In this document: one piece after another, positions 50,725 to 54,959 of the stretch | Layout: every line of letters begins with the position of its first letter | Numbering within the stretch: the first letter of the stretch is position 1 | DNA from: Neonectria sp. B-13 | Lineage: Eukaryota > Ascomycota > Sordariomycetes > Hypocreales > Nectriaceae | Assembly: GCA_002682825.1 (NCBI GenBank) | Contig: NOKP01000005.1 | Coordinates: 1,860,001-1,924,000, forward strand | Reading direction: 5' to 3' | DNA: 64,000 nt | Translations under genes and position numbers: made by a program | The notes under the pieces: model-generated | Told to the model about the DNA's origin: nothing | Seen by the model: the letters and a program-made list of their open reading frames with translations, nothing else | Database searches by the model: none

Positions 50725-53700
50725 ATGGAAGTTGTCGCGGTTATCGTGCAGCTGATTGGGACGGCCACGGCTGCAGTCCGATACGTGGACGATGTCAAAT
50801 GCAGCGTCGAGGATCGCCAAGCTTTATCCCGAGAGGTGTCGACCCTGCAATCGCTCCTCGCAGAGCTTGACTCGAGGATCCGTGGTGCCAGCCAGCATAA
50901 CAACCCCAATCTTTCGTCTAGTATACTTTTAACACCCGCCCTCAAGGGACCACTAGATCAGGTGAGGGCCTCTCTCCAGGAGCTGACGTTGCTACTTGTT
51001 CCGCCCGGGCCTTCTTCATCACCACGACGGGCGATTCGAGACTTGACATGGCGAATGCGCTGGCCGACCAAAAAGAAGAGCGCTACTGAGCTCCTGCAGC
51101 GTGTCACGCGGGCAAAGATCTCCATAGGTCTCGTCTTACAGCAAGACACTTGGTGAGATGATTACCACTGCTCGCCGCTTGTTTCGAGGTCGAAAAGCTC
51201 AACAAGCAATTGTCAGGGCTAGCACAAATATCATCGAGCAGAACACAGCATTTCTTCCCGCTGTGAAGCGCCAAGCAAGTCACATCGAAAGCGGCGTTGA
51301 AAAGCTTGCGCTCGAGGTCGAAGGTGGGCGTCTAACTAGTCCGCGCTTAACGGCACTAGGGATGGCTGACAGCAGCAGACAAACTGCGGAAAGACGTCAT
51401 CTCATGGATGTCCCCGATCAACTTCTTCGTTTCTCAGAAGGATATTCTTACTAGATATCAAAGCAAGACGTGCGAAGCTATTCTAGGTTCCCCTCAGATC
51501 AACTTGTGGATGCTGGGAAAGGGAAGCAGGCTCTTGTGCTCCGGAATTCGTAAGCTGCCCATGTGTATTTTGCATTGACCAGTTAGGTACTCGGTGCTAA
51601 CCAGTGAAAGCCGGCTCTGGCAAAACAATTTTCTCGTCCGTCACCTTGCCTTAAGGTCTACATCCTGCCTCTGCTGACGGAGTTGTACACTAGGGCCTTG
51701 ATTCTCCAACACCTTCAGCAAAAACACTCTGCTAGTGTCAGTGTAAGGATTGCCGGGCTCTTCTGCAATTACAAGGAGAAGGACTTGCAGACCCCGGTCA
51801 ACCTTCTTGCCGGCATCTGGAGGCAGCTTGCATACGATCGATCTCGCCTGAGCGACGACGTTGTCGGCTTGTACGGTGCCAATGCGGAGAAGGGGACACG
51901 GCCCAGCCTCAACGAAACAACCTCGGTGCTAACGAGGGAGATCAACCAATGGTCAGAGGTTTTTGTCGTTATCGACGCTATTGACGAATGCGACCCCGAT
52001 ATAGTCCCATCCATACTGCGGATCCTGGACATCCCCCACGTCAACATCTTGGTGACATCACGACTCCCGGGGTGGGGGCCTTTGGCAAGTTATGCCTCCC
52101 TTTCAATACAACCCAGCGCATTGGACCTGCGTCTTTATGTCGAGTCTCGGCTGAGCGAGTCGTCTCTCATGTCGAGACATTGTGAAAACGACCCTTCACT
52201 GCGAGAAGAGGTAGTTTCGACAGTCATTCACAGAGCTAGTGGCATGTAAGTAACTAATCACATAGAATCTCATCAAATATCTTCAGCTGACGGAACCAGG
52301 TTCTTAATGGCACGGTATCATATGGACCTGGTTCTCGGACAAGATTGCGTTCGTCGGGTTCGCCAAGCGCTAGATTCGCTTCCTAGAGACCTGAACTCGG
52401 CATACGCCGGCATTCTGGAGAGGATATACTCGCAGGAGCCTCACAAATCTCACAGAAGCCGCCAACTGATTGCATGGATTCTCTTTTCCACCCGCCCTCT
52501 GAGCATCGAGGAAACTCGCTGTGCCCTTTCAGTTGAACCGGAAGACTCCTCGCTGGATCAGGATGGCCTCCCCGACCTCGACGCTTTACTTTCAACCTGC
52601 AGCGGCATCATCTCTATCAATACAGAGAGTCAACATTTGGGTTTTGTTCATCAGACGTTCGCCCAATATCTCATGCAGGCTCCCCCAGTCCCCATGCCAA
52701 CGGCGCATCTTAACATAGCCCGAACTTGCATCACCTACCTCCTCTTTGACACCTTTTCCGGCGGAAGATGCCTTATTGACACAGACCTGGATGCCAGGTT
52801 ATTACAGAACCCCTTCTTTCTCTACTCGGCCCAGAATTGGGGAAAGCACACCAGAATTTGCGGAGAAGCAGTTCCGGACCTAGAATCCCTAATCAAGCAG
52901 CTTCTCTCAGATACGGGGCACCGAGAAAGCAGCCTTCAGGGCCTTCTTCTGCCAGCAGCTCGCTACGAAGGATACAGTTGGACCACCCCGAAGCATGCAC
53001 CGCCTCTCTGGTTGGCAGCTTTCTTCGGCCTTCCCGCAACGACAAATCTTCTCCTCCGCGACGGGGGCTGCTTGACTGACTTTGAGGCCTCAGACGGCAG
53101 CACTGCGCTCTCCATGGCAGCTAAATCCGGATTTACGGATGTCATGACGATTCTACTAGACCACGGCGCAGAGCTCGGGGGGTCTCGAGGCGCGGCAATC
53201 CCCCTCCTCGAGGCTGCAAGACGTGGGCAAACCGAAGCCGTGTCTCTTCTCCTGGAACGCGGAGCTGACATCGACGGCAAGTCGTCGAACGGCCGCACGG
53301 CGCTGCACGAAGCCGTTGGTGGCGGTCGCGACACGACGCTTTTCCTCCTCGACAAGGGTGCTGATGCAAATGCGACGACAAGAAACCTGTGGACCGTGCT
53401 TCACAGCGCTGTTGCAGCATGTGAGGAAGAGTTTGTGTTTCAACTACTTCATCACGGTGCCACTCTCGATACCCAGACTTCGGAGGGGGAAACAGCCCTA
53501 CATATTGCTGCAAGTCGGGGTTTCGACTCCATTATTTCGCGACTGATGGACGCTGGCGCCGCTCCTGGGTTAGTTGATATCAAGGGGGACACTGCTCTGC
53601 ATACTGCCGCCAGCCGGGGGTTTGTGTCAGCTTGCTCGTTGCTTATCCAGAGCGGATCCGGGTCCGGCATCAACGCGCAGAATAATAATGGAGAGACGCC

Positions 53701-54959
53701 GATTTACCAAGCAGCCATGGCTGGCCACGCGGCCGTTGTTAAGTTTCTCCTGGACAGGGGCGCCGACTGCAAGGTTTCAAACTCAGAGGGGACATTGCCA
53801 CTTCACCAGGCGGCTTGGATTGGGTGTCTGCCCGGCGTCATTGCATTGCTCAATACTGACCATCATCATATCAATACGGCTGACGAGCGGGGCCGGACGT
53901 GCTTGCATGGTGCTGCGGCTGGAGGGTTCGTGGATGTCGTGAAATATCTGGTCCAACATGGCGCTGATTGCACCCTAACGTACGGGCCGGGGCCCATTAT
54001 TCTCTGGAAGGCACTGAGCTGCTACAAGCACGATTCTTCGCGACACAGACTGCTGAAGTACATGTCAGGGCAAGTATCGAGGACCAAGGACAGGATCACG
54101 GCTTTAGATGAAGCCTTGGAAAATTCCCACACTGAAGTGGCCGCGATACTCCGAGCCGCATCATCTGCCAGCCCGGGAGTCGATTTCGATGTGGATGTCG
54201 ATGATCGAATTGGGCCGGGGGTCGAAAACTCGGTTGAGACGCTTCTCAGCCCCCCATTCCTCGATGGCCAAACCGGGTTCGCTTATATGTGCATCAGAAA
54301 AGAGCTCAAAGATATGCTGCATTCCGTTGGAACCGGGTCAGAAATCTTTGCACTTCCGGTCGGAAAAGATCTTGTGAGCCGACCTGGATTGTCCTTGACA
54401 AACGCCCAGCTGACTTGAGGTCTCGCAACAACAGAAGATTTGGGAGGGGGTAATCATGGGTCCAGTAAGCCAATCCTTACTCTAATGTGGCGCTCCGGGC
54501 TAACGATTCGATCTCGAAGAGCGACACAAGCTACCGCGGCGGCTTGTTCTTCCTCAGCATCCATTTCCCAGATGATTACCCTTTCAATGCGCCTCACATT
54601 CGCTTCACAACCAAGATATTCCACACTAACATCAACGAATTTGGCAGCATTTCGCTCGATATATTAAGACCAAGGAGCTTCAGTCTGCCAAGCCAGTGGT
54701 CTCCAGCATTGACAATCAGAAAATGTTGGACAAATTGCTCCTTCCCAGGTAAAGGTACCAAGAGGGGTCTCCGGCTAATTCGTGATTCCTAGGTCTTATG
54801 AACATTCACTCTCTCCTCCAAGATCCGAACGAAGGGTTCCCTCAGGCTACACATCTCTTTGCGACAAACCGGGCGGGATATTATGCGAAGGTACAGGAAT
54901 GGACTCGGATGTACGCGATGGAGTATACTACTAGGCAGTATACAGTAGGACTAAACTGA
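50725..54959 (+). CDS. NLR-like protein: HeLo-like N-domain / NACHT / ankyrin repeats / ubiquitin-conjugating (UBC) fold with Cys-to-Ser
   Basis: Exons: 50725-51323, 51373-51549, 51611-51635, 51694-52245, 52300-54373, 54435-54464, 54520-54724, 54793-54959 (about 1275 aa). The N-terminus resembles the fungal STAND N-terminal domain (EVVAVIVQLIGTATAAVRYV, then ISWMSPINFF). NACHT has Walker A GIPGSGKT, split by the 51550 intron, and Walker B VFVVIDAIDEC. A winged-helix-like LIAWILFSTRPLSIEE follows, then about nine ankyrin repeats. The open frame seems to stop at 54418, but GTGAGC at 54374 starts an intron. After splicing, a full UBC fold appears: IRKELKDML, PVGKDL/KIWEGVIMGP/SDTSYRGGLFFLSIHFPDDYPF, HTN for HPN, GSISLDIL for GSICLDIL, QWSPALTI, SLLQDPN, REWT-like QEWTRMYA. 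The catalytic Cys is Ser, and eight extra residues precede QWSP. One surplus base near 51141-51154 breaks the frame after ISIGLVLQQD. The function is inferred: a sensor with an inactive E2 module. Confidence 0.8.
54435..54959 (+). other. UBC (E2) domain exons of the NLR-like gene
   Basis: Three exons (30, 205 and 167 nt) joined by introns 54465-54519 (donor GTAAGC, branch GCTAAC) and 54725-54792 (donor GTTGGA). Both splice in phase, giving IMGP/SDTSYRGG and ALTIRK/CLMNIHSLLQDP, which match the UBC4/5-type order. Helix 1 of the fold is encoded by the end of the preceding exon (to 54373). The stop is TGA 54957-54959. The active-site position is TCG (Ser). Confidence 0.8.

Follow-up and report, generated by a model that had tools for sequence, protein, structure and literature searches.

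Within a 64,000-nucleotide stretch of the Neonectria sp. B-13 genome (contig NOKP01000005.1, positions 1,860,001 to 1,924,000; hereafter, the window), we identified a gene encoding a NACHT-ankyrin protein of the NOD-like receptor (NLR) kind, whose C-terminus is a complete ubiquitin-conjugating (E2) domain bearing a serine at the position of the catalytic cysteine. At the gene level, the sequence confirms that the NLR-like and E2 parts are fused in a single gene and that the E2 domain is complete; judged by its introns, the E2 tail is a captured UBC4/5 that has retained three of them. We tentatively propose, with somewhat less than even confidence, that this catalytically dead UBC4/5 mimic would serve as the receptor's sensing end, i.e., as a bait or docking module.

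The gene (50725-54959) comprises nine exons that encode 1256 amino acids without internal stops, and all eight of its introns are of the GT-AG type; manual placement, guided by frame closure, was used for the five exons upstream of 52300 and for the first four introns. In agreement with the original prediction, which was made from the sequence alone, the four 3' exons (2074, 30, 205 and 167 nt) keep the frame through their joins, the first E2 intron begins at base 54374, and without splicing the ankyrin open reading frame (ORF) runs into a stop at 54418. The protein has the features of a NACHT-type fungal NLR, namely an NTPase with a Walker A motif and C-terminal repeats: residues 211-371 match NPHP3_N/NACHT of Pfam (84.7 bits against a cut-off of 24.8), with the Walker A sequence KAGSGKT, and are followed by many ankyrin repeats (Ank_2, 250.4 bits). 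A GPIID_WHD winged-helix match in exon 6 scored 17 bits, below its cut-off of 27. The N-terminal domain gave no Pfam match with an E value below 0.07; exon 1 resembles a sequence elsewhere in the genome (C36:191467, E 6e-5), which in turn exceeds the cut-off for PF17111.

The E2 part matches UQ_con at residues 1098-1238, over profile positions 3-139 of 140 (score 112.8 bits; cut-off 27). This match starts within the long ankyrin exon, where helix 1 of the E2 fold had been predicted to lie, and finishes in exon 9. The solved structures nearest in sequence carry the chain names E2 4 and E2 D1-D3. Compared with the UBC4/5 (UBE2D) that the fungus itself encodes at C39:5050523, the E2 part is 54.2% identical, whereas that UBC4/5 and its Rhizoctonia counterpart are 85.7% identical. 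Four introns interrupt the own UBC4/5 gene, after codons 14 (phase 2), 30 (phase 0), 40 (phase 0) and 101 (phase 1), and the three introns of the window E2 coincide exactly with introns 2, 3 and 4, in identical phases (0, 0, 1), intron 1 being absent; by our arithmetic, random placement over 441 sites would produce this coincidence with a chance of ~3e-7. The match in position and phase makes the splicing of the window gene credible, places the unusual donor of its last intron (GTTGGA) at a conserved UBC4/5 intron site, and indicates that the E2 tail was captured from a UBC4/5 gene at the level of genomic DNA. Together with a Fusarium avenaceum protein that reads across the ankyrin-E2 junction (P0001, below), these shared introns bear out, as far as sequence can, the earlier claim of a real fusion within one gene. 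The fold itself was modelled for a relative from Xylariaceae, P0003 (mean predicted local distance difference test score 83.5, 28 sequences), which adopts a UBC fold with UbcH5b as the top match (template-modelling score 0.95 by target, root-mean-square deviation 0.9); the fold family of the window protein is assigned by sequence.

Both predicted active-site motifs were found: GSISLDIL, in which the catalytic Cys85 is replaced by Ser (codon TCG; TGC encodes Cys85 of the own UBC4/5), and HTN in place of HPN. Asn77 is present, as it is in 91/91 E2 matches. Because Cys85 is Ser, the usual thioester is impossible, and we therefore do not class the window E2 as active; by its sequence, it belongs with UBC domains without a catalytic Cys (ubiquitin E2 variant- or COP10-like, in the wide sense).

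The state of this Cys in homologs, which the original prediction had singled out for comparison, was read from an E2 search that yielded 91 matches from 106 candidates: position 85 is Cys in 76 of them and Ser in 15. Named fungi among the Ser matches are F. avenaceum (P0002), Xylariaceae sp. AK1471 (P0003) and Phaeosphaeriaceae sp. PMI808 (P0058). Of the 92 rows compared, only these three and the window protein also share an insert between L89 and W93 (6 to 11 residues vs 3) and a Cys102, which occur in 0/88 other matches. The Cys-to-Ser change shared by these relatives, which extend into further fungal orders, suggests a sensing or docking part.

The fusion, too, is partly seen in F. avenaceum. 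P0001 (1048 amino acids) joins ankyrins to the start of an E2, spans the first E2 junction and ends two residues into the would-be second intron; P0002 (115 amino acids) starts in exon 7 and spans the other two E2 junctions. As P0002 lacks the helix-1 part, it is not a whole E2. Their locus prefixes differ (FAVG1 and KAF25), and both are known as protein models. Against the window model, P0001 is identical at 62/97 positions over residues 1-142, 157/184 over 248-431 and 222/259 over 432-690, and then at 197/254 in the ankyrins, 68/95 in the linker and 33/43 in the E2 start; over residues 143-247 the figure is 37/105, where the P0001 annotation is in other frames and without the Walker A motif. 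A full-length search returned P0001 as the sole further NLR-E2 fusion among 185 candidates, which is weak evidence of rarity, since the search depends on 5-residue words in common and on correct models of the fungal genes.

We placed the E2 domains in a tree of 45 rows, composed of the window protein, the own UBC4/5, all three named fungal Ser matches, 11 of the 12 other Ser matches, 25 of the 76 Cys matches and 4 of the 8 matches to a HeLo-E2 protein; P0086 and COP10 are omitted, and the tree program issued a long-branch warning for P0081 and P0097 in both trees. With the columns of Cys85 and the insert removed, the four fungal Ser rows group together (support 91/83), as do the window, P0002 and P0003 within them (99/96); with Cys102 removed as well, the latter three stay together (96/97). 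Since this three-row clade survives the removal of columns, Ser85 is, on tree evidence, inherited in the lines of the window gene, of F. avenaceum and of Xylariaceae; P0058 is linked to them more through the shared traits than through its remaining sequence. As for the other Ser rows, eight cluster in a separate clade (99/97). P0055 and P0081 are set apart, and P0078 is placed next to the fungal rows with two Cys-keeping Rhizophagus sequences. In the best tree, the fungal Ser rows are separate from most of the other Ser85 rows. Forcing all 15 Ser rows of the tree into one clade was not rejected (approximately unbiased test, AU, p 0.194); a single origin of Ser85 is therefore possible, and we dropped the claim that the other Ser85 sequences arose separately. 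As a separate observation, P0066, P0071, P0074, P0080 and P0083-P0087 are E2 sequences with Ser for Cys85 and HCN for HPN, and all of those included in the tree (all except P0086) form one clade.

No close paralogue of the window gene was found in the genome. Apart from the gene and its mirror image (see below), the NACHT exon has its closest counterpart at C48:453010 (31% identity). The corresponding gene (L050, G000:C48:451500-459500, 569-4184 and beyond) begins with a weak PigL_N match (24.8 bits against a cut-off of 27.2) and continues through NPHP3_N and ankyrins to a protein kinase (118 bits), which, by eye, retains its HRD and DFG motifs in the part read. UQ_con profile matches were absent from C48 and from C66 and C38, two contigs with similar receptors. 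Because the kinase sits at the same end of the C48 gene as the E2 does in the window gene, the C-terminal end appears to be a swappable slot, like receptors of one genome ending in an E2 variant, a kinase or ankyrins alone. Genome-wide, 34 UQ_con matches were found, mirror pairs counted double. Pfam domains were assigned for the window gene plus three long ORFs, and the other E2 loci were viewed among the ORFs listed, so that more E2 fusions may have been missed. Two proteins of the genome fuse a HeLo domain to UQ_con with the Cys kept, as read by eye (L019, 5858-7339, plus strand; L018, 726-2765, minus strand), and 4/8 matches to one such protein carry both domains, including ones from F. sarcochroum, F. 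austroafricanum and Trapelia coarctata.

The original prediction regarded this architecture as uncharacterised, and this held for fungi in the literature searched, which included fungal NLR papers searched by term: full-text searches, judged by title and abstract and with supplements outside their reach, found no paper on fungal NACHT-ankyrin-E2, ankyrin-UBC or HeLo-E2 fusions, or on NACHT-UBC in Fusarium. It did not hold for the kind, as an integrated E2 and a Cys-less E2 are each already in print; what is new here is the occurrence, in a fungal NLR, of an integrated E2 without its catalytic Cys. Integrated decoys are well established in plants and only proposed for fungi. The main text of a Sordariales survey (PMC12258605) describes NACHT-ankyrin NLRs with zinc finger, SPRY and kinase extras at the C-terminus, i.e., the same kind of chassis as the window gene with an extra domain after the repeats, proposes integrated decoys and derives the kinase from CHK-2; that main text names neither UBC nor UQ_con among the extras, its supplementary table of 185 domains being outside our search. 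Passages of PMC7422411 list ubiquitin-conjugating integrated domains in wheat NLRs, which like the window gene carry the E2 at the C-terminus; these being plant NLRs, the two are presumably independent.

Other known proteins resemble the E2 part alone. COP10 of Arabidopsis is UBC4/5-like with a Ser. It shares with the window E2 an E2 fold without the catalytic Cys (PMC6761389); unlike the window protein, it is a stand-alone protein complexed with DDB1 and DET1, and no NLR. The own UBC4/5, with which the window E2 has three intron positions and phases in common, is by contrast a free E2 with Cys85 and no loop insert. The HeLo-UQ_con proteins (L018, L019, P0093, P0094, P0097) are similar to the window protein in fusing an E2 to a fungal cell-death-type domain, yet they keep the catalytic Cys, no NACHT was found in them, and P0093, P0094 and P0097 are distant in the tree.

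How might such a receptor work? The gene would encode an intact fungal NLR (a PigL_N-like N-terminus, NACHT and ankyrins) that bears a captured UBC4/5 as its C-terminal integrated domain, and has the host-like extra domain, fused to an NLR, that is one mark of an integrated decoy. The E2 mimic would be bound by foreign proteins that target UBC4/5 or by partner RING ubiquitin ligases (E3s), upon which the NACHT would oligomerise and the N-terminal domain would then act; we infer the ligand, the triggering and the output. This bait or docking reading fits the position after the repeats, the kinase at the same place in the C48 gene, a divergence faster than that of UBC4/5, and the mostly kept RING-contact residues. 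The latter, F62, S94, P95, A96 and L97, are all retained in the window E2 by alignment. The gene is also free of the RIP-like dinucleotide ratios (repeat-induced point mutation) of its AT-rich flanks, and a precedent for the presumed kind of ligand is OspG, an effector that binds UbcH5-ubiquitin, as described in part of PMC4197628.

Several observations weigh against this proposal. P0002, P0003 and P0058 are annotated as short, stand-alone proteins. For P0003, the idea of a clipped NLR with an NLR-like linker before the E2 was rejected, as 4007/5000 shuffles score equally high. P0058 joins the other three at 40/73 once the Cys102 column is removed. K4 and R5 of helix 1, contacts of the activating enzyme (E1) and of E3s, are M and C in the window, while P0001 keeps K and R; K63 is altered in the window, P0002, P0003 and P0058; and P0002 further has A for P95 and N for D87, and P0058 W for F62, so that some members may no longer bind E3s. 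Moreover, the part after NACHT is best matched by C66 (34%), the C48 gene (33%) ranking below C66, C38 and C68, and the scanned ORFs of C66 and C38 showed ankyrins (in C38, also a winged-helix match) without an additional C-terminal domain. A wider version of the proposal is a rather unlikely but live prospect: an ascomycete lineage of dead UBC4/5 mimics, marked by Ser85, the insert and Cys102, would be built into an NLR at least in the fungus of the window and, judging from the ankyrin-E2 start of P0001, in F. avenaceum, as a tripwire against mycoviral, bacterial or rival-fungal proteins that seize UBC4/5. If true, fungal immunity would guard the ubiquitin pathway by the integrated-decoy logic known from plants. 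An NLR with a captured, apparently inactive host enzyme is a defined bait and poses the direct question of what binds it, and the kinase-ended relative and the Cys-keeping HeLo-E2 fusions suggest repeated coupling of the ubiquitin system to fungal cell-death proteins.

Other explanations were weighed against the same evidence. In one that we find unlikely, though quite conceivable, the domain serves for output or control in the manner of COP10: lacking its Cys, the E2 would bind active E2s or E3s and either alter ubiquitination upon receptor oligomerisation or recruit an E3 that keeps the receptor low. The output domain of fungal NLRs is usually N-terminal, which counts against such a module, as does the best tree, in which the fungal rows lie apart from most other Ser85 rows and COP10 is not included. 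The retained RING contacts and the unrejected single origin of Ser85 speak in its favour, as does COP10 itself, which reportedly enhances genuine E2s in vitro despite lacking the catalytic Cys (PMC6761389). Much less probable is that the Ser is still used, forming a stable ubiquitin oxyester such that the receptor carries or reports charged ubiquitin. UBCH5B C85S does give an isolable, stabler ubiquitin oxyester in vitro, according to a portion of PMC9501438, and Asn77 is retained throughout; yet K4 and R5 are lost and D117 is missing in the window, D87 is altered in P0002, and N114 is altered in P0003 and P0058.

It is improbable, if less so than oxyester formation, that the tail is functionless and decaying, tolerated since intron retention yields an ankyrin-ended protein. 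The distance of the E2 part from UBC4/5 and the single copy of the gene besides its mirror image agree with decay; the frame, however, is open across four exons with conserved splice positions, the E2 start matches F. avenaceum as well as the ankyrins do, and three identical derived traits recur in four sequences. Least credible, and very nearly dismissed, is that an NLR and a separate E2 gene were wrongly joined. The short annotated relatives P0002, P0003 and P0058 fit this, the predicted ankyrin-UBC fusion being seen among homologs in P0001. Against a wrong join, the ankyrin exon contains E2 helix 1, P0001 spans the next junction, and P0002 has no E2 start. The features of the gene are listed below.

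Features of the NACHT-ankyrin-E2 gene, in window coordinates
Feature	Position	Strand	Basis
Exon 1, N-terminal domain, distantly PigL_N-like	50725..51152	+	ORF
Exon 2, coil	51217..51323	+	hand-placed ends; frame closure, GT-AG introns
Exon 3, up to Walker A	51373..51549	+	hand-placed ends
Exon 4, Walker A KAGSGKT	51605..51635	+	gene model; NPHP3_N 211-371
Exon 5, remainder of NACHT	51694..52245	+	gene model, Pfam; P0001 alignment runs through exon 5
Exon 6, weak winged-helix match, ankyrin repeats, linker, E2 helix 1	52300..54373	+	gene model, Pfam
Intron at UBC4/5 intron 2 position and phase; retention leads to stop 54418	54374..54434	+	F. avenaceum P0001 spans same junction
Exon 7, E2 strand KIWEGVIMGP	54435..54464	+	gene model, P0001 alignment
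Intron at UBC4/5 intron 3 position and phase	54465..54519	+	P0002 spans it
Exon 8, E2 core: HTN, Ser85, loop insert	54520..54724	+	gene model, Pfam, alignment
Intron at UBC4/5 intron 4 position and phase, donor GTTGGA	54725..54792	+	P0002 spans it
Exon 9, C-terminal E2 helices and stop	54793..54959	+	gene model, Pfam

The window corresponds to the minus strand of contig C72 in the 61 Mb genome (G000). An apparent second, independent copy of the gene at C72:1914517 was rejected, being its mirror image on a palindromic contig: 9901/9901 compared bases, all on C72, where the palindrome was checked base by base, are identical. The C72 palindrome is probably an assembly feature that holds no independent copy. 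Matches at mirror coordinates mark C72, C114 and C38 as palindromic, and C20, C36, C41, C50, C54, C56, C68, C81 and C105 show a like pattern; all of these are probably assembly features as well. Within the window, the gene has a GC content of 0.535 and a TpA/ApT ratio of 0.60, as against 0.247 and 1.53 in the RIP-like stretch at 55-58 kb. More broadly, positions 24001-46000 and 55000-64000 are AT-rich (GC ~0.20-0.25) with RIP-like dinucleotide ratios, and at 46206-46625 a reading frame resembles, by eye, the RNase H end of a copia-type element.

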